Below are positions 1,491 to 63,776 of a DNA stretch of 64,000 bases, piece after piece (within the stretch, counting starts at the first letter, position 1; every line of letters starts with the position of its first letter). Source of the stretch: Streptacidiphilus sp. P02-A3a (GTDB lineage Bacteria; Actinomycetota; Actinomycetes; Streptomycetales; Streptomycetaceae). The stretch is from the NCBI RefSeq assembly GCF_014084105.1, contig NZ_CP048289.1:8255922-8319921 (forward strand). Reading direction: 5' to 3'. The notes under the pieces are model-generated. The model worked only from the letters and a program-made list of their open reading frames with translations, had not been told where the DNA came from and searched no databases. A program made the translations under genes and the position numbers.

Positions 1491-2009
1491 ATGCACAGCC
1501 CACGCCACCGCGTCCAGTGCCCTCCGGTCGAGGGCGCCGGCGACGCCGAGGAGGGGGAGCCCGCGTCAGCGGCCCTCCTCGCCCACCTGGGCACGGCCAG
1601 GAGCACCTGGCCGATGGACCGCCAGGCCGCCGCGACCCTGCCCGGGCAACCCGCCTCGGTCGCCCGGGCCCGGCGCTTCGTCCGGATCACGGCGGCCATG
1701 TGGCGGCTGTCGGACGACACCGTGGCCGAGGTGGAGCTGTGCATGTCGGAGCTGGTGTCCAACGCGGTCACCCACACCGTCAGCCGCCGGGTGCACTGCC
1801 GGTTGTGGAGCGCCCGCGGGGTGCTGGTGCTGGAGGTGGACGACGAGGGCCGGCGCGAGCTGCCCCGCACCGAGTCGGCCGCCGAGGACGACGAGCACGG
1901 CCGCGGGATGCTGCTGGTCGAGTCGTTCACCGCCGCCTGGGGGACGGTCCCCCGGCCGGAGTACTCGGGCAAGACGGTGTGGGCGGCGCTGCTGCTGCCC
2001 TCCGGATGA
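1491..2009 (+). CDS. RsbW-like ATP-binding (GHKL) regulatory protein
   Basis: 172 aa with a single HATPase_c domain. The N box is ELVSNAVTH (about residues 86-94) and the G box GRGMLLVES (about residues 138-146), as in anti-sigma serine kinases of the RsbW/SpoIIAB group, very numerous in streptomycetes. No membrane segment or second domain is seen. Such proteins bind a sigma factor or phosphorylate an anti-anti-sigma partner, but no partner gene is adjacent. The start is uncertain: ATG 1491 is the longest frame, while ATG 1614 has an AGGAG 10 nt upstream and would give a 131-aa protein closer to family size. Confidence 0.8.
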   Translation: MHSPRHRVQCPPVEGAGDAEEGEPASAALLAHLGTARSTWPMDRQAAATLPGQPASVARARRFVRITAAMWRLSDDTVAEVELCMSELVSNAVTHTVSRRVHCRLWSARGVLVLEVDDEGRRELPRTESAAEDDEHGRGMLLVESFTAAWGTVPRPEYSGKTVWAALLLPSG

Positions 2010-2021
2010 CCGTCGGCGGCG

Positions 2022-2047
2022 CCTCAGGCCTCGCACCTCAGGCCTCG
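2022..2047. repeat. 12-bp direct repeat at the convergent gene ends
   Basis: CCTCAGGCCTCG occurs at 2022-2033 and again at 2036-2047, duplicating the sequence around the stop codon of the VWA gene. It looks like a small tandem duplication; no hairpin-type terminator is evident in this 28-bp convergent gap. Confidence 0.5.
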
Positions 2048-3240
2048 GGTATCGGTAGCGGCTGCTTCTGGATCGCGGCGGCCATGATCTCCGGGAAGAG
2101 GTCCGGGGTGCAGGCGAAGGCCGGAGCCCCGAGCGCCGCGAGCGCTGCCGCGTGGGAGCGGTCGTACGCCGGGGCGCCCTCGTCCGACAGTGCCAGCAGC
2201 GCGATGAACTGCACCCCGGCGGCCTTCATCGCGGCCACCCGCTTCAGCATGCCGTCCCGGATCCCGCCCTCGTACAGGTCGCTGATCAGCACGACCACGG
2301 TGTCGGCCGGACGGGTGATCCGGGACTGGCAGTACGCCAGCGCCTGGTTGATGTCGGTGCCGCCGCCCAGTTGGACGCCGAACAGCACGTCCACCGGGTC
2401 GGCCAGCTGCTCGGTCAGGTCGACCACGGCGGTGTCGAAGACCACCAGCCGGGTGCGCAGCGAGGACATCGAGGCCAGCACGGCGCCGAAGACCGAGGAG
2501 TGCACGACCGAGGCGGCCATCGAGCCGGACTGGTCGATGCACAGGATGACCTCCTTCTTCACCGCGTTGGCGGCCCGGGCGTAGCCGATCAGCCGCTCCG
2601 GCACGACCGTGCCGTGGGTGCGTGCGCCCTCCGGCTCGACGTAGTTCCTCAGGTTGGCCCGGATGGTGCGGTCCCAGTCGATGTCGCGGTGGCGCGGGCG
2701 GTTGACCCGGGCGCTGCGGTCCAGCGCGCCGCCGACCAGTGAGCGGGTTCGGGTCGCGATCCGGCGTTCGAGCTGCGCGACGACCTTCCGGACGACGGCG
2801 CGGGCGCTCTCCCGGGTGGTCTCCGGCAGTGCCCGGCCGAGCGACAGCAGCGTGCCGACCAGGTGCACGTCGGGCTCCACCGCCTCCAGCATCTCCGGCT
2901 CCATCAGCAGCTGGGCCAGGCCGAGCCGGTCGATGGCGTCCTGCTGCATCACCTGCACCACCCGGGTGGGGAAGTACTCGCGGATGTCGCCGAGCCAGCG
3001 GGCGACCTCGGGCGCGGAGCCGCCGAGCCCGGCGCCGCGCGGGCGGCCGCGGTCCGGCGCGTTGCCACCGGCGCCGCCCGCGCCGTTCCGGTAGAGGGCG
3101 CTCAGGGCGCGGTCCATCGCCGCCTCGCGTCCGCTGAGGCGGCAGCCGGTGCCGTCGGCGTCGCCGCCGAGGACCAGCCGCCAGCGGCGCAGCCGCTCGT
3201 CCGCGGCCTGGGCGGGGGTGGTGCTGCCGGGGCTGGTCAT
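2038..3240 (-). CDS. VWA-domain protein partnered with a MoxR-type AAA ATPase
   Basis: 400 aa. A von Willebrand A domain occupies about residues 228-385 with an intact metal-ion (MIDAS) motif DQSGSMAAS (about 236-244), a downstream Thr (GGGTDINQAL) and Asp (ISDLYEGG). The N-terminal 200 residues are helical and resemble CoxE/YehP-type VWA partners of MoxR ATPases. It is last in a three-gene operon: its ATG overlaps the stop of the DUF5682 gene in an ATGA, indicating coupled translation. By family knowledge a MoxR-VWA pair acts as an ATP-driven remodeller with the VWA protein as adaptor; the target is unknown. Confidence 0.88.
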   Translation of the reverse strand: MTSPGSTTPAQAADERLRRWRLVLGGDADGTGCRLSGREAAMDRALSALYRNGAGGAGGNAPDRGRPRGAGLGGSAPEVARWLGDIREYFPTRVVQVMQQDAIDRLGLAQLLMEPEMLEAVEPDVHLVGTLLSLGRALPETTRESARAVVRKVVAQLERRIATRTRSLVGGALDRSARVNRPRHRDIDWDRTIRANLRNYVEPEGARTHGTVVPERLIGYARAANAVKKEVILCIDQSGSMAASVVHSSVFGAVLASMSSLRTRLVVFDTAVVDLTEQLADPVDVLFGVQLGGGTDINQALAYCQSRITRPADTVVVLISDLYEGGIRDGMLKRVAAMKAAGVQFIALLALSDEGAPAYDRSHAAALAALGAPAFACTPDLFPEIMAAAIQKQPLPIPEA

Positions 3241-5579
3241 GGCTGGGCCTCCGTCAGGTCGGGATTCGGCGCGGGAGTCGGGTCAGCGGTCGGGTCAGGA
3301 GTCGGGTCGGCGGTCGGGGCGAGCAGCAGCGCGGCGGTCGCGCGGGCGGCCCCGGCGCGGGCCTGGTCGGGCTCGGCGGCGAAGCCCGGGCGGTCACCGG
3401 CCGGGGGCTGCCCGCCGGTGGCGCCGGGAGCGGCGCGGACCCGCTCACCGACGGTGCGCCGCACCGCCGCCTCGAAGCCGGAGAAGGTCCGCCGCAGCAG
3501 CGGCAGCACGTCCGGGAAGACCGCCTCGGGGACGCCGGTCAGCCAGTCGTCGACCAGGCCGAGCAGCCGGGTGTCATGGATCAGCAGCATGCCGCCGCCC
3601 GCGAGGAAGCCCTCGATCCAGCCCGCCGCGTCGGCGGGTTCGCTCGCCGCCGACAGCGCAAGGCCCAGGTGCCGGGCGGCTTCGTCGGCGTCCCACTGGT
3701 TGTCGTCCAGCAGCAGCCGGGTGGCCCGGCCGCGCAGCAGCCCGGGGACGGTGTCCCGGCGGGCCAGCGTGCGCAGCGTGGTGGGCCAGCGGGCACCCGG
3801 ACCGTCGGTCGCCGAGCCGCCGCTGGGGCCGTCGGCGAGCAGGGCGACGGCCGCGTGGGTCGTGCCCAGGTGCACCGCCATCGCGGTGGCGCCCTCGGCG
3901 TCCAGGTGGGCGCAGGCCGGTGGGAGGCCGACGCAGATCCGCACCGCCAGGCTCTCCGCCAGGTGCCGCAGCGCCGAGGCGTCGGTGCCGCGGACGTCGC
4001 CGTAGCGCAGCGAGCGGACCAGCGCGGGCAGCGCCTCGGCCAGGTGGGCGACGTCGGCGTCGAGCGCGGCGCGGTCGGCGAGGGCGCTGAGCACGGTGTC
4101 CAGCGCGCCCGGGAGGTCGGCCAGCAGGCAGCTCTCGGCGAGGCCGGTGACCTCGGCCAGACCGGCCGCGTTGACGGCCCGGTCGGCGGCCCGGGCCTGG
4201 GCCGCCGACTCGACGGTGGTGCCCCAGATCCCGGCTTCGGCGATGGAGACCGCGAGTTCGGGCTCCCAGCGCAGCCGCCAGCTCTCCCGGAAGGTGCCGG
4301 TGGAGGCGGTGCGCGGGTCGGCCGGTCGGCCCCAGTGGATGTCCAGCAGCCGCAGCCGGTGCAGCAGGCGGCTGCGGGCGGCGTCGGTCTCCTTGCGCAG
4401 GTCCAGGTCGAGCAGGCGTTCGTCCGGCTCCGGCTTGAGCCGCAGCGCGCGCTGCGACCGGGACAGGTCGCGCTGCAACGGGACGGCGGGCGCGCCCTCC
4501 GGTACCGCGCCCAGGGCCTCGCCGACCACCAGCCGGTCCGAGATCAGCGCGAGCGGGACGTCCGAGCCCTCGCACAGCACCGCCCGGGCCGCGTCCAGGG
4601 TCTCCGCCAGGCCGGGGACCGGTCGTCCGCGCATGACGGCCAGGGTCTCGGCGAGCCGGGCGGCCTCGATCACATGGGCCGAGGAGACCGAGTAGTCCTC
4701 GGCCCGGAGCAGCGCGGCCATCCGGGTGAGCCAGCGCACCGGGCCCGGATCCGGCGACTCGAACAGGTGCTGGTACCAGCCGGGCGAGGCGATTCCGGCT
4801 CCGTAGCCGGTGTGCTGGGACAGCCGGCGGTGTGTCCAGGGCACCCAGGTCAGCTCGACCTTGGCCTTGGGCAGCCCCTTGAGCAGGGCGTTGTCCTCGG
4901 TCGCGGAGACCCGGGCGGCCAGCGCGGGGACGTGCCAGGCCCCGCAGACCACGGCGATGCGCTGGTGCCCGGCTCTCCGGGCCGCCCGCAACTGCCTGCG
5001 CATATGGGCCTCGCGCACGATGTCGGTGCCCTCGGCCGGGCCGGTCCGCAGCTCGGCCATGGCCTCGGCGATGGCCCGGAAGGGGTCGAGGGCGTCCGCG
5101 CCGGGCTCGGGCAGCCGGTGCTCGACGACGTCCTCCCACCACTGCTCGGGGTCGTCGTGACCGGCGACGCGGGCGAGTTCGCCGATCGGGTCGCGCGGCG
5201 CCCCCGGTGAGGACGCCTCCTCGTCCTCGGGGCGGTCCGGACCGGCGGCGAGGCTGTGCGCGGCCGGAAGGTCGATGAAGTGGACCGGCAGGTCGCGGTC
5301 CAGCGCGTGGCGCAGCGCGACCCACTCGGGTGAGAAGGCCGCGTAGGGCCAGAACGCGGCGCGGGCCGGTTCGTCCACGATGTGGGCCAGCAGTGCCACC
5401 GGCGGGACCATCTCCTTGTCGGCGGCGAAGGCGAGCAGCGCGTCCGCCTCCGCCGGGCCCTCGATCAGGACCGCGTCCGGCTGGTACTGCCGCAGCGCCG
5501 CGGCGACCGCGCGGGCCGAGCCGGGACCGTGGTGGCGCACCCCCAGCAGGGCCACGCCTTCGGCTTGTCTGTGCGTCAT
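3237..5579 (-). CDS. DUF5682 family protein
   Basis: 780 aa, soluble. The N-terminus LLGVRHHGPGSARAV (about residues 11-25), followed by DAVLIEGPAEAD and VHFIDLP, resembles the TraB/TIKI/erythromycin-esterase superfamily, in which such His and Glu positions form a metal or catalytic site. A second conserved-looking block, IAVVCGAWHVPAL, lies near residue 225. The C-terminal 400 residues are helix-rich without a recognised domain. It is the middle gene of the AAA-DUF5682-VWA operon, 52 bp after the AAA gene. The start is ATG 5579 with GGGGTGG upstream; longer forms run into the preceding gene. The biochemical activity is unknown, and hydrolase or protease-like chemistry is inference only. Confidence 0.8.
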   Translation of the reverse strand: MTHRQAEGVALLGVRHHGPGSARAVAAALRQYQPDAVLIEGPAEADALLAFAADKEMVPPVALLAHIVDEPARAAFWPYAAFSPEWVALRHALDRDLPVHFIDLPAAHSLAAGPDRPEDEEASSPGAPRDPIGELARVAGHDDPEQWWEDVVEHRLPEPGADALDPFRAIAEAMAELRTGPAEGTDIVREAHMRRQLRAARRAGHQRIAVVCGAWHVPALAARVSATEDNALLKGLPKAKVELTWVPWTHRRLSQHTGYGAGIASPGWYQHLFESPDPGPVRWLTRMAALLRAEDYSVSSAHVIEAARLAETLAVMRGRPVPGLAETLDAARAVLCEGSDVPLALISDRLVVGEALGAVPEGAPAVPLQRDLSRSQRALRLKPEPDERLLDLDLRKETDAARSRLLHRLRLLDIHWGRPADPRTASTGTFRESWRLRWEPELAVSIAEAGIWGTTVESAAQARAADRAVNAAGLAEVTGLAESCLLADLPGALDTVLSALADRAALDADVAHLAEALPALVRSLRYGDVRGTDASALRHLAESLAVRICVGLPPACAHLDAEGATAMAVHLGTTHAAVALLADGPSGGSATDGPGARWPTTLRTLARRDTVPGLLRGRATRLLLDDNQWDADEAARHLGLALSAASEPADAAGWIEGFLAGGGMLLIHDTRLLGLVDDWLTGVPEAVFPDVLPLLRRTFSGFEAAVRRTVGERVRAAPGATGGQPPAGDRPGFAAEPDQARAGAARATAALLLAPTADPTPDPTADPTPAPNPDLTEAQP

Positions 5580-5631
5580 CTGAGCCACCCCCTGTGTCGA
5601 AGTCCGGCCTGGTGCTGTCACCGACGGACCG

Positions 5632-6726
5632 TCAGCGCTGCTCGGTGTCCCGGCAGCTGCGGTAGAAGTCCTTCCACTCCTCGCGTTCGCGGACGACGCT
5701 CTCCAGGTACTCCTGCCAGACCAGCCGGTCGGCGGCGGGGTCGCGGACCACGGCGCCGAGCAGGCCGGAGGCGACGTCGCCGGGGCGCAGCACGCCGTCA
5801 CCGAAGTGCGCGGCCAGCGCCAGACCGCTGGTGACCACGGAGATCGCCTCGGCGGTGGACAGGCTGCCCGAGGGCGACTTGACCTTGGTGCGGCCGTCGG
5901 TGGTGACCCCGTCCCGCAGTTCGCGGAACACGGTGACCACCCGGCGTATCTCGGTGGAACCGCTGGGGACCTCGGGCAGCCGCAGCGAGCGGCCCAGCTC
6001 GGCGACCCGGCGCGCGACGATGTCCACCTCGTCGTCCAGCGAGGCGGGCAGCGGCAGCACCACCGTGTTGAACCGGCGGCGCAGCGCGCTGGAGAGCTCG
6101 TTGACGCCCCGGTCGCGGTCGTTGGCGGTGGCGATCAGGTTGAACCCGCGCACCGCCTGCACCTCCTCGCCGAGCTCGGGTATCGGCAGGGTCTTCTCGG
6201 ACAGGATGGTGATCAGGCTGTCCTGGACGTCGGCCGGGATCCGGGTGAGCTCCTCCACCCGGGCGGTCAGCCCCTCGGCCATGGCGCGCATCACCGGGCT
6301 GGGTACCAGCGCGCCCCGGCTCGGGCCCTCGGCCAGCAGCCGGGCGTAGTTCCAGCCGTAGCGGACCGCCTCCTCCGGGGTGCCGGCGGTGCCCTGGACC
6401 AGCAGCGTCGAGTCGCCGCTGACGGCGGCGGCCAAGTGCTCGGACACCCACGTCTTGGCGGTACCGGGCACGCCCAGCAGCAGCAGGGCCCGGTCGGTGG
6501 CGAGGGTGGTGATCGCGACCTCGACGATCCGGCGCGGGCCGACGTACTTGGGGGTGATCACCGTGCCGTCGGGGAGGGTCCCGCCGAGCAGGTAGGTGGC
6601 CACGGCCCAGGGCGACAGCCGCCAGCGGGCCGGGCGGGGCCGGTCGTCGGCGGCGGCGAGGGCGGCCAGCTCGGCGGCGAAGGCCTGCTCCGCGTGCGGT
6701 CGCAGGGCCTCGGTGGTTGTGGGCAT
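5632..6726 (-). CDS. MoxR-type AAA+ ATPase
   Basis: 364 aa. Walker A is GVPGTAKT (about residues 85-92). The sensor 1 segment FNLIATANDRDRGVNELSSALRRRFN and arginine-finger region are typical of the MoxR/RavA branch. It is first gene of the operon with DUF5682 and VWA, and MoxR ATPases work as hexameric remodellers with VWA partners. Start ATG 6726 has GAGGAG upstream. The reading frame continues open upstream, but that stretch contains the promoter motif at 6830-6852, so the longer form is rejected. It is probably induced by DNA damage through that motif. Confidence 0.9.
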   Translation of the reverse strand: MPTTTEALRPHAEQAFAAELAALAAADDRPRPARWRLSPWAVATYLLGGTLPDGTVITPKYVGPRRIVEVAITTLATDRALLLLGVPGTAKTWVSEHLAAAVSGDSTLLVQGTAGTPEEAVRYGWNYARLLAEGPSRGALVPSPVMRAMAEGLTARVEELTRIPADVQDSLITILSEKTLPIPELGEEVQAVRGFNLIATANDRDRGVNELSSALRRRFNTVVLPLPASLDDEVDIVARRVAELGRSLRLPEVPSGSTEIRRVVTVFRELRDGVTTDGRTKVKSPSGSLSTAEAISVVTSGLALAAHFGDGVLRPGDVASGLLGAVVRDPAADRLVWQEYLESVVREREEWKDFYRSCRDTEQR

Positions 6727-6829
6727 GGCAACTCCTCGTCCGAGGGAGGCGGATGACTGAGTGGGCGTCAGAAGACAGCGAAGGGGCAGCGGCCCGGGCG
6801 CCGGAGCCCGGCGTCCGCCTGCAACCACC

Positions 6830-6852
6830 ACTCTGCACCCGGCCACTGACAA
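6830..6852 (-). promoter_or_regulatory. PafBC / RecA-NDp-type DNA-damage promoter of the AAA-DUF5682-VWA operon
   Basis: On the minus strand TTGTCAGTG (6852-6844), an 8-nt spacer and CAGAGT (6835-6830) match the actinobacterial LexA-independent DNA-damage promoter consensus TTGTCRGTG-N8-TAnnnT except for C in place of the first T of the -10. Transcription would start near 6823, leaving a leader of about 97 nt. A 22/23 identical copy precedes the ABC transporter at 63716. Confidence 0.7.
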
Positions 6853-6896
6853 TCGAGCCGGGAGGCGGCCGCCGCCCGCTCGCCGGGTCGGCCGGA

Positions 6897-6919
6897 TTGT
6901 CGGACCCCCCGGCTACGGT
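6897..6919 (+). promoter_or_regulatory. PafBC-like promoter of the SWIM-DUF5691 operon
   Basis: TTGTCGGAC (6897-6905), 8 nt, then TACGGT (6914-6919) fits the spacing of TTGTCRGTG-N8-TAnnnT with 7 of 9 upstream bases matching. The -10 ends 7 nt before the ATG at 6927, so the transcript would start at or next to that ATG and be leaderless, in agreement with the lack of a Shine-Dalgarno. Confidence 0.55.
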
Positions 6920-6926
6920 CCTTGCC

Positions 6927-8339
6927 ATGGAGGATCGCTGGACACCGGAGCACGTTCTCTCACTCGCCCCTGACGCCCCCTCACGCAAGGCGGCGTCCAA
7001 ACTCTCGGCCCCCGCGCCCTGGTCGGCCACGGGCTCGGACGACCGCGCCCTGTGGGGCCAGTGCCAGGGCAGCGGCGGCACGCCCTACCGGACGGCGGTC
7101 GAGCTGGCCGGTCCCGCCTACCAGTGCAGCTGTCCGAGCCGGAAGTTCCCCTGCAAGCACGCGCTGGGCCTGCTGCTGCTCTGGGCCGCCCGGGGCACCG
7201 GGCAGGGCCAGGCCCCCGAATGGGCCACCGGCTGGCTGGACGCCCGCCAGGAGAAGGAGCGGCAGCTCCAGGACCGCCGGGAGCAGCAGCGGCAAGGCGC
7301 CGAGCAGGACGGCGGCGCGGAGGAGCCGGCCGACACCGCCGCGCGGCTGGCCGCCGCCAAACGCGCCGCCCGCCGGTCCGAGCGGGTCGCGGCCGGGGCC
7401 GCCGAGCTCCAGGCCAGGCTCGCGGACCAGCTGCGGGCCGGTCTCGCCGACGCCCCGCAGCAGGGCCCGGCGGCCTGGGCCGGGGTGGCCGCCCGGATGG
7501 TCGACGCCCAGGCTCCCGGGCTCGCGGCGCGGGCCCGGGAGCTGGGGACGGTCCCCGCGTCCGGCCCGGGCTGGCCCTCGCGGCTGCTGGAGGAGTACGG
7601 CCTGCTGCACCTGCTCGCCGCCGGATACCAGCGGGTGGACAGCCTCCCGGCCGGGCTGGCGGCGACGGTCCGGGCCCGGGTCGGCTTCACCGTGGACACG
7701 GCCGAGGTGCTGCGCGGGCCGGTGGTCCGCGACCACTGGCTGGTCCTCGGCAGCAGCGACAGCGGCGACGAGCGGCTGACCACCCGGCGGATCTGGCTGC
7801 GCGGCAGCCGCAGCGGGCAGCCCGCGCTGCTGCTCTCCTTCGGACGCCCGGGGAGCGCGCCCGACCTCGCCCTGCCGACCGGCCTGCGGCTGGACGCCGA
7901 GGTGGCCTTCCACCCCGGCGCGCGCCCGCTGCGGGCGGCGCTCGGCACCCGCTTCTCCGCCCCCAGCGTCCCGTCCCCGGCCGAGGCCGTCCCGCCCGGG
8001 CTGCGGCTGGAGGCCGCGCTGGACGCCTACGGCCGGGCGCTGAGCGACGATCCGTGGCTGGACTCCTGGCCGGTGGTGCTGGAGCGGGTGGTCCCGCTGC
8101 CCGGCGCCCTCGGCTGGGAGCTCGCCGACCACAGCGGCCCCGCGCCGGTCGCGATACCCGTCGACCGGCGGAGCACCCCCGACTCCGGACTGTGGCGGCT
8201 GGCCGCCGTCTCCGGGGGCCGCCCGCTGACGCTGTTCGGGGAGTGCGGGCACCGGGGCTTCACCCCGATCACCGCCTGGTACCACGAGGAGACCTCCGGC
8301 GACCCGCGCCGGATCCGCACCCTGGGGGTGACCGCATGA
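6927..8339 (+). CDS. SWIM zinc-finger family protein
   Basis: 470 aa. A SWIM zinc finger CSCPSRKFPCKH (C67, C69, C76, H78) lies in the N-terminal 100 residues; it is followed by a charged Gln/Glu/Arg-rich stretch (about 105-150, probably coiled coil) and a large C-terminal region without a recognised domain. SWIM fingers bind nucleic acid or protein. The start at ATG 6927 is supported by the leaderless promoter; the frame is open upstream but reads through promoter sequence. It is divergent from the AAA gene with a 200-bp shared promoter region and is translationally coupled (ATGA) to the DUF5691 gene. Confidence 0.86.
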   Translation: MEDRWTPEHVLSLAPDAPSRKAASKLSAPAPWSATGSDDRALWGQCQGSGGTPYRTAVELAGPAYQCSCPSRKFPCKHALGLLLLWAARGTGQGQAPEWATGWLDARQEKERQLQDRREQQRQGAEQDGGAEEPADTAARLAAAKRAARRSERVAAGAAELQARLADQLRAGLADAPQQGPAAWAGVAARMVDAQAPGLAARARELGTVPASGPGWPSRLLEEYGLLHLLAAGYQRVDSLPAGLAATVRARVGFTVDTAEVLRGPVVRDHWLVLGSSDSGDERLTTRRIWLRGSRSGQPALLLSFGRPGSAPDLALPTGLRLDAEVAFHPGARPLRAALGTRFSAPSVPSPAEAVPPGLRLEAALDAYGRALSDDPWLDSWPVVLERVVPLPGALGWELADHSGPAPVAIPVDRRSTPDSGLWRLAAVSGGRPLTLFGECGHRGFTPITAWYHEETSGDPRRIRTLGVTA

Positions 8340-9865
8340 CCACCGCGGCGAAACTGCCGGAGCAGACCCGGACCGACCCCACCGCCTGGCCCGACCTGGT
8401 CACCGCCGCCCTGCTGGGCACCGACCGGCGGCCGGTGCCCGCGCTGCTGGACCAGGCGGCGCTCCAGGCCGTGGCCCGGCGGGCCGGGCTGCGCCCCGGA
8501 CCGGCCTCGCCGCCGCCGCCCGCCGCCCCGGCCGACCCCCGGCCGACGCTGCCCGAGGCCGCGCGGCAGCGGCTGGCGATGCTGCTCCCGCTCCGGGGCG
8601 GTGGATCCGGCGGCGGCACCCTGGCCAACCTGAACGAACTGCTGCCGCAGTGGCTGACCGCCGCCCAGGGCCACGGCTACCGCTGCCCGCCCGCGCTGGT
8701 GCCGCCGCTGCTGGACGCAGCCCGGGCCCGCAGCGAACTGCGCGCGGACGCGGTGGCCCTGGCCGGTCCGCTGGGCCGCTGGCTGGCGGACCGCAACCCC
8801 GACTGGCGGTACGTGCTGCGGACGCCGGTCACCGGCGGCGCGGACGCCGAGCCGGACCAGCGGATCTGGCAGGAGGGGCTGTTCGCGGAACGGGTCACCC
8901 AGCTGACCCGGCTGCGCCGCCGCGATCCGGACGCCGCCCGCGAGCTGCTGCGCGGCACCTGGTCGAGCGAGCGGGCCGAGGACCGGCTGCTGTTCCTGGA
9001 TGCCCTGCAGGAGGGCCTGACCGCCGGGGACGAGCCCTTCCTGGAGGCGGCGCTGAGCGACCGCGCCAAGAACGTCCGGGCGACCGCGGCGGAGCTGCTG
9101 GCCGCGCTGCCCGGTTCGGCGCTGGCGGAGCGGATGGCGCGGCGGGCGCTGGCCTGCGTGGCGCTCTCGGACACCGCGGACGGCGCCCGGCTGACCGTCC
9201 ACCCGCCCACGGCCTGCGACGCGGCGATGCAGCACGACGGAATCCCGGCGGCCTCGCCGACCGGGCGGGCCGACCGGGCGTTCTGGCTCGGCGAGATCGT
9301 CGCGGCCACCCCGCTGGGCACCTGGGCGGCGGCCTACGGCTCCCCGGCGGAGCTGCTGGCGCTGCCGGTGTCCGACGCCTGGCAGCAGGACCTGCGGGAC
9401 GCCTGGGCCCGGGCCGCCGTCCGGCAGGGCGACGCCGCGTGGGCGCGGGCGCTGCTGTCACTGCCCGCGCCGGATCCGATACCGGTGGGCAGCGCCGCCA
9501 AGCTGCTGGCGGTGCTGCCGTCGCCGGAGCGAGCCCGCTGGACCGCCGATTTCCTGGCCGGACACGGCCTCGCGGACGTCTTCCAGCTGCTGGTGGCCTG
9601 CCCAGCGCCCTGGCCCGAGGCGCTGGGCCGGGCGGTACTGGCCGCGCTGCGGCGGGTCGCGGCGAGCGGCGGCTACCCGTGGAGCCACAGCGGGGTGATC
9701 GGCGTGGCCGAGCGCGCGCTGCCGCCGGAGACCGCGTCGGAGCTCTCGGCACTGGCCGAGGACGCCGCCCCGGCCTGGGCCGAGACCTTCACCCGGCTCG
9801 GCGCCACGCTCCGGCTGCGCGCCACGATGCTCGCCGAGCTCGCCTCCGGTGAGGCCGTCGGCTGA
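8336..9865 (+). CDS. DUF5691 family protein
   Basis: 509 aa, soluble and helix-rich. Segments such as LFLDALQEGLTAGDEPFLEAALSDRAKNVRATAAELLAALPGS (split here only for description) look like HEAT-type helical repeats, suggesting a scaffold. The start ATG at 8336 overlaps the stop of the SWIM gene as ATGA. Genes of this family co-occur with SWIM, MoxR AAA, DUF5682 and VWA genes in actinomycetes, and all five are present here on both sides of one promoter region. No catalytic motif is visible. Confidence 0.82.
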   Translation: MTTAAKLPEQTRTDPTAWPDLVTAALLGTDRRPVPALLDQAALQAVARRAGLRPGPASPPPPAAPADPRPTLPEAARQRLAMLLPLRGGGSGGGTLANLNELLPQWLTAAQGHGYRCPPALVPPLLDAARARSELRADAVALAGPLGRWLADRNPDWRYVLRTPVTGGADAEPDQRIWQEGLFAERVTQLTRLRRRDPDAARELLRGTWSSERAEDRLLFLDALQEGLTAGDEPFLEAALSDRAKNVRATAAELLAALPGSALAERMARRALACVALSDTADGARLTVHPPTACDAAMQHDGIPAASPTGRADRAFWLGEIVAATPLGTWAAAYGSPAELLALPVSDAWQQDLRDAWARAAVRQGDAAWARALLSLPAPDPIPVGSAAKLLAVLPSPERARWTADFLAGHGLADVFQLLVACPAPWPEALGRAVLAALRRVAASGGYPWSHSGVIGVAERALPPETASELSALAEDAAPAWAETFTRLGATLRLRATMLAELASGEAVG

Positions 9866-11556: not shown

Positions 11557-14181
11557 TCAGAGCTTCTCCACCGGCGCGTAGCGCAGCAGCAGCTGCTTGG
11601 TGCCCTCCGAGCCGAAGTCGATGGTGGCCTTGGCGTCGTCCGCCGGACCGGCGACGGACACGACCGTCCCCAGGCCGAAGCGGTCGTGGGTGACCCGGTC
11701 GCCGACCGCGAGCGAGACCACCGGCCGGTCCTTCATCCGGCCCCCGCTCTTGCCCCAGCCCGCGGGGGCGCCGCGCTTGCCGCCACCGCTCAGACCGCTG
11801 CCGCCGCCGAAGGAGGAGCCGCGAGCCGCGGGCGGGGCGGCGGCGGCCGAGCGCCGCTCGTCCACCAGGGCCGGCGGGATCTCCTCCAGGAAGCGCGAGG
11901 CCGGGTTGTACGAGGGCTGGCCCCAGGCGCTGCGCAGCACCGCCCGGGAGACGTACAGCCGCTCCCGGGCCCGGGTCAGCCCGACGTACGCCAGCCGCCG
12001 CTCCTCCTCCAGCTCCTTCGGCTGGCCGAGCGCCCGCAGGTGCGGGAAGACGCCGTCCTCCATGCCGGTCAGGAACACCACCGGGAACTCCAGGCCCTTG
12101 GCGGTGTGCAGGGTCATCAGCGTGATGACCCCCTTGCTCTCGCCGCCCTCGCCATCCGGTGAGTCCGGGATCTGGTCCGAGTCGGCCACCAGGGCGACCC
12201 GCTCCAGGAACCCGGCCAGGCCGGTGGCGACCGGTTCGGCGTCCGGGTCCTCGGCCGGTTCGGCCGACGCCTCCGCCTGCTCGAACTCCAGCGCGACCGC
12301 GGCGAGCTCCTGCAGGTTCTCCACCCGGGTCTCGTCCTGCGGGTCGGTCGAGGCCTGGAGCTCGGCCAGGTAGCCGGTCTCCTCCAGCACCGCCTCCAGC
12401 ACCGCCGCCGCGCCCGCGCCGGAGTCGACCACGCCGCGCAGCTTCGCCAGCAGCTCGTTGAACTTCTTCACCGCGTTCACCGAGCGCGCGGCCATGCCGT
12501 AGGCCTCGTCCACCCGCCGCAGCGCCTCGGCGAAGGAGATCCGCTCGCGCTGCGCCAGCGCGTCGACCATGGCCTCGGCCCGGTCGCCGATGCCGCGCTT
12601 GGGCACGTTCAGGATCCGCCGCAGCGGCACCGTGTCCTCGGGGTTGGCCAGCACCCGCAGGTACGCCAGGACGTCCCTGACCTCCTTGCGCTCGTAGAAG
12701 CGCACCCCGCCGACGACCTTGTACGGCAGCCCGACCCGGATGAACACCTCCTCGAACACCCGGGACTGGGCGTTGGTCCGGTAGAACACCGCCACGTCGC
12801 CCGGCCGGGCGTCGCCCGCGTCGCACAGCCGGTCCACCTCGTCGGCGACGAACTGCGCCTCGCCGTGCTCGTCGTCCGCGACATAGGCGACGATCCGGGT
12901 GCCGTCGGCGCCCGCCGTCCACAGGTTCTTCGCGCGGCGGTTGGTGTTGCGCTCGATCACCGCGTTCGCGGCGCTGAGGATGGTCTGGGTGGAGCGGTAG
13001 TTCTGCTCCAGCAGGATGGTCACCGCGTTCGGGTAGTCCTCCTCGAAGTCGAGGATGTTGCGGATGGTCGCGCCCCGGAAGGCGTAGATCGACTGGTCCG
13101 CGTCACCGACCACGCACAGCTCCGCCGGGGGCACCGAGGCCAGACCCGCCGCCGCCGGGTTCACGAACTCGCCGTCCACCGTCCGCTTCGGCGCGGACCC
13201 GCTGGCCCCGCCGCTCAGCTCGCGGACCAGCATGTACTGGGCGTGGTTGGTGTCCTGGTACTCGTCCACCAGGATGTGCCGGAACCGCCGCCGGTAGTGC
13301 TCGGCGACGTCCGGGAACGCCTGGAGCAGGTGCACCGTGGTCATGATGATGTCGTCGAAGTCCAGCGCGTTGGCCTCGCGCAGCCGCCGCTGGTAGAGCG
13401 CGTAGGCCTCGGCCAGCTTGCGCTCCATCGGGTTCTCGGCCTGACCGGCGTAGGTCTCCTCGTCGATCAGCTCGTTCTTGAGGTTCGACACCTTGGCGGT
13501 GAAGGACTTCGGCGGGAACTGCTTCGGGTCCAGGTCGAGGTCGCGGCAGCAGAGCGCCATCAGCCGCTGCGAGTCCGCCGAGTCGTAGATCGAGAAGCTG
13601 GAGGTGAAGCCGAGGTGCTTGCTCTCCCGCCGCAGGATCCGCACACAGGCGCTGTGGAAGGTGGACACCCACATCGCCTTGGCCCGCGGACCCACCAGCT
13701 CCGCGACCCGCTCGCGCATCTCGCCGGCGGCCTTGTTGGTGAAGGTGATCGCCAGGATCTCCCCCGGCTGCACCCCGCGCGCGGCCAGCAGGTACGCGAT
13801 CCGATGGGTCAGCACCCGGGTCTTGCCGGAGCCGGCCCCGGCCACGATCAGCAGCGGCGAGCCCGCGTGCTCCACGGCCTCGCGCTGCTGCGGGTTCATC
13901 CCGTCCAGCAGCTGCGCCGGGTCGGCGACGGTGCGCGCCGCACCGTTCCGGTGGTAGGCGTCCCGGTCCGGCGGGGGCGCGTCGAAGCGCCCCGCGAACA
14001 GGTCCGGGGGCAGTTCCTCCTCGTAGGGGGCGTCCTCGTCCGGACCGTGGTCGGTCGGGCCGAAGTCGGGGCCGAAGTCGAACACGGGCACGTCGAGGTA
14101 CGCGGCACCGCCGACCGGCTGCGGCGCCGCGCCGGGCGCGTCCAGACCGGGCAGGGGGATGTCGTCAAAGAGGCTGCTCAT
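11557..14181 (-). CDS. pcrA: ATP-dependent DNA helicase PcrA/UvrD
   Basis: 874 aa superfamily 1A helicase. After a 90-residue acidic N-terminal tail come the Q motif (MNPQQREAV), Walker A AGAGSGKT (about 114-121), motif Ia ITFTNKAAGEMRERV, motif II VDEYQDTN, motif III VGDADQSIYAFRGA, motif IV EQNYRSTQTI, motif V MTLHTAKGLEF and motif VI YVGLTRARERLY. The C-terminal 60 residues form the basic Tudor-like RNA-polymerase-binding domain of PcrA. It unwinds DNA in excision repair and replication-transcription conflicts. The start ATG 14181 sits 8 nt after a TAGACT -10, so the mRNA is probably leaderless and damage-inducible. Confidence 0.95.
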   Translation of the reverse strand: MSSLFDDIPLPGLDAPGAAPQPVGGAAYLDVPVFDFGPDFGPTDHGPDEDAPYEEELPPDLFAGRFDAPPPDRDAYHRNGAARTVADPAQLLDGMNPQQREAVEHAGSPLLIVAGAGSGKTRVLTHRIAYLLAARGVQPGEILAITFTNKAAGEMRERVAELVGPRAKAMWVSTFHSACVRILRRESKHLGFTSSFSIYDSADSQRLMALCCRDLDLDPKQFPPKSFTAKVSNLKNELIDEETYAGQAENPMERKLAEAYALYQRRLREANALDFDDIIMTTVHLLQAFPDVAEHYRRRFRHILVDEYQDTNHAQYMLVRELSGGASGSAPKRTVDGEFVNPAAAGLASVPPAELCVVGDADQSIYAFRGATIRNILDFEEDYPNAVTILLEQNYRSTQTILSAANAVIERNTNRRAKNLWTAGADGTRIVAYVADDEHGEAQFVADEVDRLCDAGDARPGDVAVFYRTNAQSRVFEEVFIRVGLPYKVVGGVRFYERKEVRDVLAYLRVLANPEDTVPLRRILNVPKRGIGDRAEAMVDALAQRERISFAEALRRVDEAYGMAARSVNAVKKFNELLAKLRGVVDSGAGAAAVLEAVLEETGYLAELQASTDPQDETRVENLQELAAVALEFEQAEASAEPAEDPDAEPVATGLAGFLERVALVADSDQIPDSPDGEGGESKGVITLMTLHTAKGLEFPVVFLTGMEDGVFPHLRALGQPKELEEERRLAYVGLTRARERLYVSRAVLRSAWGQPSYNPASRFLEEIPPALVDERRSAAAAPPAARGSSFGGGSGLSGGGKRGAPAGWGKSGGRMKDRPVVSLAVGDRVTHDRFGLGTVVSVAGPADDAKATIDFGSEGTKQLLLRYAPVEKL

Positions 14182-36173: not shown

Positions 36174-37883
36174 CTACCCGAGCGGGACGATGTCCTCCGC
36201 CCCCAGTCTGGCGGCTTCGGCGGTGAGGTCGTCCGGCTGCCGCTGCGACTCCCGTTCGGCCGCGACCCGGATCCGGTACTGCTCCACCTCGCGGTCGATC
36301 CGGCGCTGGTCCCAACCGAGTTCACCGGCCATCAGCTCGGCGGCCTCGCGCATGCTGGCGGTGCCCCGGTCGAAGGTCTCGATGGAGATCCGGGTGCGCC
36401 TGGCCAGCACGTCGTCGAGGCGCTGGGCGCCCTCGCTGCGGACCGCGTGGACGACCTCGGCGCGCAGGTAGTCGTCCGCCCCGCCCAGCGGTTCGGCCAG
36501 TCCCGGCTCGGCGGCGATGAGTTCCAGCAGTTCGCCGACGAGTGAGCCGTAACGGTTCAGCAGGTGCTCGACCCGGGCCACGTGGAGTCCGCTGGTCCGG
36601 GCCAGCTCGGCGCGGCCGTTCCACAGCGCCTGGTAGCCCTCGGCCCCGGCCAGCGGCACCCGCTCGGTGCAGCTCGGCGGAACCCGCTGGTCCAGGCCGT
36701 GCACGGCCTCGTCCACGGCGTCCCGGGCCATCACCCGGTAGGTCGTGTACTTGCCCCCGGCGACCACCACCAGACCGGGCACGGAGTGCTGGACCACGTG
36801 CTCGCGGCTGAGCTTGGAGGTCGCCTCGGACTCCCCGGCCAGCAGCGGGCGCAGCCCGGCGTAGACGCCCTCGACGTCCTCCCTGGTCAACGGCACCGCC
36901 AGGACCGAGTTCAGATGGTCGAGCAGGTACTCGATGTCGGCGCCGCTGGCCGCCGGGTGGTCCTTGCCCAGAGTCCACTCGGTGTCCGTGGTGCCCACGA
37001 TCCAGTGCCTGCCCCAGGGGATGACGAACAGCACGCTCCGCTCGGTCCGCAGGATCAGCCCGGTGGCGGAGTGGATCCGGTCGCGCGGAACCACCAGGTG
37101 GATGCCCTTGGACGCGCGCACGTGGAACTGGCCGCGGGTGCCGACCAGGGCCTGCGTCTCGTCCGTCCACACGCCGGTCGCGTTGACGACCTGTCGGGCG
37201 CGTACCTCGAACTCACCTCCCAGTTCCAGATCATGCACCCGGGCACCGACAACCCGCTCCCCCTCGCGCAGGAAGCCGGTCACCCGGGCCTGGTTGGCGG
37301 CCCAGGCGCCGTAGCCGGCGGCGGTGCGGACGAGGGTGGCCACGTAGCGGGCGTCGTCCATCTGGGCGTCGTAGTACTGCACCGCGCCGACCAGGGCGTC
37401 CCGGCGCAGGCAGGGCGCCAGCCGCAGGGCCTGACGGCGGCCCAGGTGCCGGTGCAGCGGCAGCCCGCGGCCGTGCGATCCGGACACCGACATGGCGTCG
37501 TAGAGGGCCACCCCGGAGCCCACATAGGCGCGCTCCCAGCCCCGGTGCCGCAGCGGGTAGAGGAAGGACACCGGCTTGACCAGGTGCGGGGCCAGGGTCT
37601 CCAGCAGCAGGCCGCGTTCCCTCAGCGCCTCCTGGACCAGGGTGAAGTCCAGCATCTCCAGGTAGCGCAGACCGCCGTGGATCAGTTTGCTGGAGCGGCT
37701 GGAGGTGCCCGAGGCCCAGTCCCCGGCCTCCACGATGCCGGTGGACAGGCCGCGGGTGACCGCGTCCAGCGCGGTCCCGGCGCCGACCACGCCGCCGCCG
37801 ACGACCAGGATGTCGAGTTCCCGTTCGGCCATCCGGGCCAGCGACTCCGCCCGTTCGGCCGGACCCAGTTTCGTGCTTCGCAT
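36174..37883 (-). CDS. glpD: Aerobic glycerol-3-phosphate dehydrogenase
   Basis: 569 aa. FAD-binding DILVVGGGVVGAGTALDAVTRGL (about 27-49, quoted in part), GTSSRSSKLIHGGLRYLE, the substrate-site Arg-containing GLRPLLAGE and the C-terminal GKYTTYRVMA are GlpD signatures, and a DAO_C helical domain ends the protein. It oxidises sn-glycerol-3-phosphate to dihydroxyacetone phosphate at the membrane and passes electrons to the quinone pool. The start ATG 37883 follows GGAGG. Confidence 0.95.
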   Translation of the reverse strand: MRSTKLGPAERAESLARMAERELDILVVGGGVVGAGTALDAVTRGLSTGIVEAGDWASGTSSRSSKLIHGGLRYLEMLDFTLVQEALRERGLLLETLAPHLVKPVSFLYPLRHRGWERAYVGSGVALYDAMSVSGSHGRGLPLHRHLGRRQALRLAPCLRRDALVGAVQYYDAQMDDARYVATLVRTAAGYGAWAANQARVTGFLREGERVVGARVHDLELGGEFEVRARQVVNATGVWTDETQALVGTRGQFHVRASKGIHLVVPRDRIHSATGLILRTERSVLFVIPWGRHWIVGTTDTEWTLGKDHPAASGADIEYLLDHLNSVLAVPLTREDVEGVYAGLRPLLAGESEATSKLSREHVVQHSVPGLVVVAGGKYTTYRVMARDAVDEAVHGLDQRVPPSCTERVPLAGAEGYQALWNGRAELARTSGLHVARVEHLLNRYGSLVGELLELIAAEPGLAEPLGGADDYLRAEVVHAVRSEGAQRLDDVLARRTRISIETFDRGTASMREAAELMAGELGWDQRRIDREVEQYRIRVAAERESQRQPDDLTAEAARLGAEDIVPLG

Positions 37884-63753: not shown

Positions 63754-63776
63754 ACTCTGCACCCCGCCACTGACAA
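63754..63776 (-). promoter_or_regulatory. PafBC / RecA-NDp-type promoter of the ABC transporter operon
   Basis: On the minus strand TTGTCAGTG (63776-63768), 8 nt, CAGAGT (63759-63754), 22 of 23 bases identical to the site before the AAA gene. A second TGTCAGTG without a -10 lies 31 bp further upstream (63806-63799), and a third TGTCAG half-motif at 63817-63812. Confidence 0.7.

Follow-up and report, generated by a model that had tools for sequence, protein, structure and literature searches.

What do five genes arranged on both sides of one promoter region do, and what switches them on? The question is raised by a locus of Streptacidiphilus sp. P02-A3a, which we analysed within a stretch of 64,000 nucleotides (the window, 8.256-8.320 Mb of the 9.33-Mb genome). 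The locus encodes a MoxR AAA+ ATPase, a DUF5682 protein and a VWA protein on the minus strand, and a SWIM zinc-finger protein and a DUF5691 protein on the plus strand; each of the two gene sets is preceded by a promoter element of the RecA-NDp/PafBC type. The evidence leans towards an AAA+ remodelling machine of YehL/MoxR type that is damage-induced, being switched on with the DNA-repair regulon. The core of the system is of the known yehLMPQ type of Escherichia coli; new are the DUF5691 protein, the doubled damage promoters and the presence of the same element at sister operons.

Gene organization of the locus

The minus-strand operon comprises the genes of the MoxR AAA+ ATPase of YehL type (5632-6726; Pfam AAA_5, E-value 2.3e-37), the DUF5682 protein, a YehM homologue (3237-5579; Pfam, 1.5e-277), and the VWA (VWA_CoxE) protein, a YehP homologue (2038-3240; Pfam, 1.2e-57). 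The plus-strand operon points away from it and comprises the genes of the SWIM zinc-finger protein (6927-8339; Pfam SWIM, 3.7e-6) and the DUF5691 protein, a predicted all-helical HEAT/ARM-like solenoid (8336-9865; Pfam, 2.4e-159). An earlier note on this DNA had placed five genes around one intergenic region, with ATGA coupling inside each operon. Gene models and Pfam families agree with the first statement. Coupling is present once in each operon, for DUF5682/VWA at 3240-3237 and for SWIM/DUF5691 at 8336-8339, and does not extend to MoxR and DUF5682, which are separated by a 52-nt gap.

The five genes form one system

The earlier note had also taken the two operons as a single system. In the window they are separate and divergent, and the sister operons described below have MoxR-DUF5682-VWA without SWIM-DUF5691, as would be expected if two unrelated systems merely shared a promoter region. 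This explanation is contradicted by the gene order at other loci. Among 114 loci examined besides the window, SWIM and MoxR stand back to back in 91, and the genes run in one direction in 13, in the order SWIM-(DUF5691)-MoxR-DUF5682-VWA. All five genes are co-directional in Embleya, Phytohabitans, Actinomadura, Sphaerisporangium and Catenulispora, among others; at two of the 13 loci DUF5691 was missed by tblastn though its profile matches there. The other ten loci consist of three without MoxR, six with MoxR-DUF5682-VWA but no SWIM (one of them, L113, at a contig end) and one with VWA-MoxR.

Co-occurrence points the same way. In a sample of 198 genomes of the phylum, DUF5691 was found above the profile cut-off in 16, a count that omits three matches below the cut-off and includes five whose match is confined to the N-terminal 146-210 of the 491 profile positions. 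DUF5682 was found in 17, and all 16 genomes with DUF5691 have both, linked. All 14 genomes examined within the genus have DUF5691, at a single place in each. Since 13 loci run the genes in one direction, the five almost certainly form one system, as the earlier note held, and we reject two unrelated systems, for which there is next to no likelihood left.

A damage-type element precedes both operons

The consensus of the RecA-NDp/PafBC-type element, which we take to be TTGTCRGTG-N8-TAnnnT, follows the earlier note; the passages of the papers name the RecA-NDp motif without its letters. Neither window site is perfect. On the MoxR side, TTGTCAGTG-N8-CAGAGT (6852-6830, minus strand) has one mismatch to this consensus. 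On the SWIM side, TTGTCGGAC-N8-TACGGT (6897-6919, plus strand) has two, the element being degenerate here; the ATG of SWIM lies 7 nt downstream of it. In the whole genome (9.3 Mb), 33 perfect matches were found against one for the reversed control, and 112 against five when up to one mismatch was allowed; many of the 33 perfect sites end 5-10 nt upstream of a start codon. The motif is carried by all 41 Streptomycetaceae genomes scanned, with 2 to 40 perfect matches per genome and 647 in all, against five for the reversed control.

At the 91 divergent loci the element is conserved on both sides. The MoxR-side site has at most one mismatch in 82 loci, two in two, three in six and four in one; at L038 the best-scoring site is a chance site at three mismatches, the true site being likewise at three. 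The SWIM-side site is perfect in 74 loci and has one mismatch in nine and two in eight, so that 83 are at one mismatch or fewer. Of 1820 shuffled versions of these regions, two reached this threshold on one strand or the other; neither the reversed motif nor any of 20 permuted ones did so at any of the 91 loci, on either side. Motif columns carry about 1.87-1.91 bits and their flanks 0.34-0.81 bits. Because the alignment was built around the best match to the motif, its motif columns come out favoured; reversed and permuted motifs, used to gauge that bias, gave columns averaging 0.5-0.7 bits and at most 1.25 (on one side).

The window elements are not due to chance, given how far sites in the genome outnumber those of the reversed control and how well both promoters keep the element across the 91 divergent loci; both very probably act as damage promoters. 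The earlier note had assigned both promoters to the damage consensus and had proposed conservation before orthologous operons as a check; the sites are real at one (minus) and two (plus) mismatches, and the conservation was found in Streptomycetaceae. At three of the 13 co-directional loci (Embleya, Sphaerisporangium and Catenulispora), a site with one mismatch lies 8 nt upstream of SWIM, and MoxR has none.

Two features of the sites themselves were observed. In all 82 well-matched divergent loci the MoxR-side -10 hexamer reads CA..nT, never TA, and GGTG stands before it in nearly all, which makes this an unusual as well as a constant version of the element. In the window and 13 loci of the same genus (L032-L044), exactly one of the two sites has TGTCRGAC in place of TGTCRGTG, on the SWIM side in seven loci and on the MoxR side in seven; this split may reflect two clades.

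The regulon and its probable regulator

Ten first genes downstream of perfect sites, picked by eye for a repair-like look, were scanned against Pfam. Nine belong to replication, recombination or repair (DnaX, two UvrD-type helicases, HolA, RuvC, RarA/MgsA, UvrB, a DinG-type protein and RecA) and one to the Pup-ligase family. One site (L077) has rpsF-ssb downstream of it, as recognised by eye. The Pup-ligase-family gene has its own element, at 2.9054 Mb, and about 6 kb downstream of the gene two WYL genes lie in tandem, at 2.9131 and 2.9141 Mb. From this position, which is that expected beside Pup-proteasome genes, and not from a tree, we infer that they are pafB and pafC.

In the passages available to us, PafBC is named as the regulator in mycobacteria (PMC8223512, PMC6789036), and RecA-NDp is in print in Streptomyces for recA and for the UV-inducible SCO6735 (PMC5087735, PMC9411070). 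The window locus shares with this regulon the type of element, its tight spacing to the starts and the company of recA, ruvC, uvrB and the Pup-ligase-family gene; it differs in the constant CA..nT -10 of the MoxR-side site. In the open-access literature searched, no published tie of these genes to the RecA-NDp/PafBC regulon or to DNA damage was found, no paper names DUF5682 or DUF5691, and no single paper brings MoxR and SWIM together with DNA damage in Streptomyces.

Sister operons carry the same element

Eight further DUF5682 places were found in six of the seven sample genomes of the same family (L029, L030, L161-L164, L159/L028 and L160/L031). These sister operons share MoxR and VWA with the main locus, as well as a DUF5682 homologue recognised by profile. 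They differ in their first gene, which encodes DUF4132 (L161, L163), WGR-DUF4132 (L030) or VWA (L029), and tblastn detected neither SWIM nor DUF5691 in them. The 400 nt upstream of their MoxR genes hold nothing within three mismatches of the motif, because MoxR is not the first gene there. The idea that sister operons lack the element was overturned by scans from the operon heads, which found it on the operon strand in eight of eight cases, seven perfect and one with a single mismatch.

In L030, a perfect element lies 55 nt before the gene of a 1207-residue WGR-DUF4132 protein (1939-5640), whose end overlaps the MoxR frame and which is followed by DUF5682 and VWA. WGR domains are known from the DNA-break-sensing PARP enzymes. 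Perfect elements likewise stand directly upstream of the DUF4132 opening genes of L161 (2388-3363) and L163 (2426-3340), at 17 and 46 nt respectively; the next gene, about 1,690 codons long, is followed by MoxR, DUF5682 and VWA. The long first open reading frames of L161 and L163 were discarded as opening genes, as they run across the DUF4132 gene in a different reading frame. The ~1,690-codon gene is homologous in four loci and has no Pfam match. Judged by position, this layout is shared by L159/L028 and L160/L031, and in L162 the element lies 6.0 kb before MoxR (L162 and L159/L160 were left out of the Pfam scan of first genes). In L029 it stands 5 nt before the VWA gene, which MoxR follows, and L164 is of this type. 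DUF4132 also precedes MoxR in L027. Additional sites in these stretches, in L028 at 14470 and 14683 and in L164 at 7116, fall outside the operons. With the element at all eight sister operons, damage-type promoters in Streptomycetaceae accompany systems of this kind as a whole. This raises the likelihood of a link to DNA damage and of the genome-maintenance role considered below.

Protein families and relation to known systems

The yehLMPQ cluster of E. coli K-12 has the same order of MoxR, DUF5682 and VWA, followed by a SWIM protein (YehL, YehM, YehP and YehQ). The window proteins are 40% identical to YehL (over 363 columns), 27% to YehM and 36% to YehP (over 378 columns), and both systems have a SWIM finger. 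The two differ in several respects. DUF5691 has no match in the control genomes, E. coli included, and YehQ shows no significant match to the window SWIM protein (E-value 0.18). WGR and DUF4132 genes lie upstream of yehL, unlike at the main locus, an arrangement that the order of L030 recalls. No element was found within three mismatches in the 400 nt upstream of yehL, nor within one mismatch in a 20-kb stretch. The sources searched yielded no described role for a yehLMPQ-type cluster.

RavA-ViaA of E. coli, in the part of PMC3893208 at hand, shares the logic of a MoxR protein with a VWA partner. It differs in that RavA matches the window MoxR over 55 columns only (24% identity, E-value 0.029), the match of the VWA core has an E-value of 2e-5, and no yehM/P/Q-like gene is annotated in a 12-kb stretch. 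As similarity to YehL extends over the full length and far exceeds the short match to RavA, the only two proteins compared, MoxR is assigned by its sequence to the YehL subfamily of MoxR AAA+ ATPases. Its surroundings are those of this subfamily, with DUF5682, VWA and SWIM genes nearby. The Walker A motif GVPGTAKT, an EE pair, sensor N202 and RRRF are near-invariant in 110 MoxR sequences, a profile search of solved structures matched midasin and NorQ, and the Pfam matches to bpMoxR and nSTAND3 are below cut-off.

In the VWA protein, the metal-binding MIDAS residues D, S, S, T and D are kept in 105-107 of 107 sequences; a profile search of solved structures gave no match. The SWIM motif CxC-x6-CxH (CSC...CKH) is conserved in 88 of 93 sequences and the Pfam match is above cut-off, as expected of a SWIM zinc finger.

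The earlier note had seen a TraB/EreA-type fold in DUF5682 and a repeat scaffold in DUF5691, for which fold and profile matches give weak to moderate support. The predicted model of DUF5682 (mean pLDDT, the predicted local confidence score, 85) has a helical solenoid as its C-terminal half, which dominated the whole-model fold search, so that the N-terminal domain was hardly probed by it. The N-terminal part matches the erythromycin esterase EreC weakly, with a Z-score of 7.2-7.3 and a root-mean-square deviation of 5.7-6.8 over 177 aligned residues at 14% identity. Matches to TraB (E-value 0.065) and ChaN/Tiki (0.12), one protein each and near a GxxH motif, are also weak. Residues R15, H16, H17, E40, E85, R189, E190 and H216 are conserved through to E. 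coli YehM, a set known from the alignment and not superposed on the EreA active site. The N-terminal domain may thus tentatively be regarded as an EreA/TraB-type hydrolase; that DUF5682 is an active hydrolase is conceivable, and we would not quite count on it. The predicted model of DUF5691 is nearly all-helical (pLDDT 87) and its top fold matches are mostly ARM/HEAT proteins, at E-values of 4.8e-3 or weaker and Z-scores of 7.5-10, from which a HEAT/ARM-like solenoid is predicted. Among solved structures, nothing matched the profiles of DUF5682 or DUF5691, and Foldseek gave nothing at an E-value of 0.001 or better for either model.

A proposed mechanism and its alternatives

We propose that, upon DNA damage, PafBC would direct RNA polymerase to both promoters, so that both halves of the system are produced together. 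MoxR would assemble as a ring, and the VWA protein would hold a client through its metal site and couple ATP hydrolysis to restructuring of this client. Recognition and retention would fall to the SWIM zinc finger and the DUF5691 solenoid; their client is probably a protein, or an assembly of protein and nucleic acid, that has stalled or been damaged. DUF5682, with its EreA/TraB-like N-terminal domain and conserved His/Glu/Arg residues, would perform a hydrolytic or ligand-binding step. In this scheme, regulation rests on sequence conservation and remodelling on protein family; the client and the enzymatic step are what we infer from these. Remodelling by the AAA+/VWA pair is likely, and the odds that the client is connected with DNA damage or repair are about even.

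Several points weigh against a damage-induced machine. At the window locus itself, the plus-side site has two mismatches and the CA..nT -10 of the MoxR side is a weak hexamer; the loci are related, so that the conservation counts are not independent. At the other ten of the 13 co-directional loci, sites before SWIM have two to four mismatches and nothing better, and eight of the nine distant genomes that have such loci contain no perfect motif anywhere. The core job of the system therefore need not be damage-specific, and its link to the promoter element is lineage-limited. The regulon is also mixed: ten further first genes, which bring those scanned to 20 of the 33 perfect sites with 13 left out, include no core repair enzyme. 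Seven of them have Pfam matches (HAD, ADP-ribosylglycohydrolase, MFS, AraC-type, alpha/beta hydrolase, enoyl-CoA hydratase and YdjM) and three have none. At least four sites (L051, L052, L053 and L067) apparently lie in or against other genes. Since the scanned first genes include both repair and non-repair types, the element marks a DNA-repair regulon plus other genes. In the published passages, deletion of SCO6735, the one damage-promoter gene that has been studied, brought no clear change in survival (PMC5087735, PMC9411070), and an initial search in S. venezuelae found the mycobacterial PafBC motif not to be conserved (PMC9380542). As for DUF5682, Tetrahymena complex IV chains outscore EreC on its N-terminal domain, with Z-scores of 9.2-9.4, and the EreA/TraB resemblance is near noise.

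Three other explanations would account for part of these observations. The five genes could be a damage-induced system against invaders, with MoxR-VWA as a gate, SWIM/DUF5691 as a sensor and DUF5682 as an effector, following a logic like that of the MoxR-vWA ternary conflict systems (Kaur et al. 2020, PMC7159879). In the passages seen, the latter share with our locus a MoxR and VWA core and extra conserved partners, and such pairs are described as the core of conflict systems enriched in multicellular bacteria, including actinobacteria. The conserved putative active site of DUF5682 and the multiple paralogous versions per genome would fit with this. However, a VMAP, iSTAND, FtsH or beta-propeller third component, as named in the part of that paper available, was not found above the Pfam cut-off in the five proteins, so the set does not pass as a ternary conflict system on this test. 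PADLOC gave just two marginal AAA matches (E-values 0.02 and 0.058), and the locus is stable, occupying one place in each of 14 genus genomes and keeping recurring neighbours: a B12-binding match in 83 of 114 loci and a UvrD homologue in 51 of the 114 searched, most of those stretches ending near UvrD. For these reasons a defence role is less likely; we regard an anti-invader system as improbable, and a mobile defence island was judged unlikely on the same grounds of locus conservation, neighbours and marginal PADLOC matches. The system could instead be a housekeeping chaperone that matures an unnamed enzyme, as proposed for other MoxR-VWA pairs, the element being a promoter form of many genes. 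MoxR proteins have been described as maturation factors (PMC3893208, in the part seen), the operon is also kept by genomes that lack the motif, and several motif genes are metabolic. Yet perfect copies of the motif are few, 33 in 9.3 Mb, and are found ahead of recA, uvrB, ruvC, dnaX and genes like them; moreover, both halves carry the element where the operon is split, as do the eight sister operons. We give this explanation rather little credence.

Even less can be said for detoxification, in which DUF5682 would hydrolyse a DNA-damaging or toxic small molecule in the manner of EreA-type esterases and the AAA, VWA and SWIM proteins would serve to mature it. The EreC-like N-terminal match and the conserved His/Glu/Arg set are in its favour, but the match is weak, the partners would far exceed what an esterase should need, and the E. 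coli homologue has similar partners; we hold it for very unlikely. The damage-induced remodelling machine is retained, and it can be carried further into a bolder proposal, which we consider doubtful as it stands. YehL-type MoxR-DUF5682-VWA systems may form an unrecognised family of genome-maintenance machines. Their AAA+/VWA motor would work with a hydrolase of EreA/TraB fold and with recognition units that can be exchanged, SWIM-DUF5691 in one branch and WGR-DUF4132 in a second, to strip or process proteins that have become trapped on damaged DNA or RNA. In Streptomycetaceae, all branches seen would have been wired to the damage regulon, E. coli yehLMPQ being a relative with another switch.

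The conserved damage-type promoters at the main locus and at the sister operons offer a concrete condition under which this kind of system can be studied, and this in easily handled soil bacteria. They also bear on whether Streptomyces has a PafBC-type response, as 41 of 41 family genomes carry the motif (S. venezuelae not being included by name among those scanned) against the negative result of 2022 in the passages seen of PMC9380542.

Neighbouring genes and further sites

Beyond the DUF5691 gene, a UvrD/PcrA helicase identified by Pfam is encoded on the minus strand (11557-14181). It has its own near-perfect element, CTGTCGGTG-N8-TAGACT (14212-14190, minus strand), which ends 8 nt before the ATG. 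From its promoter sequence, this helicase is a candidate member of the same regulon, outside the machine itself. Elsewhere in the genome, first genes following perfect sites encode an ADP-ribosylglycohydrolase (L057), a HAD hydrolase (L050), an MFS exporter (L063) and YdjM (L046), and one is an 830-codon frame without a Pfam match (L070). A near-motif at 37230-37252 of the window was set aside, as it lies inside a gene that by eye resembles that of a glycerol-3-phosphate dehydrogenase. At the far end of the window, TTGTCAGTGGCGGGGTGCAGAGT (63754-63776, minus strand) is almost identical to the MoxR-side site and lies 37 nt before an ATG (63716). The gene that follows was recognised by eye as encoding a DrrA-like ABC exporter ATPase, with an ABC-2-type permease after it, and the pair is possibly a damage-linked drug exporter.

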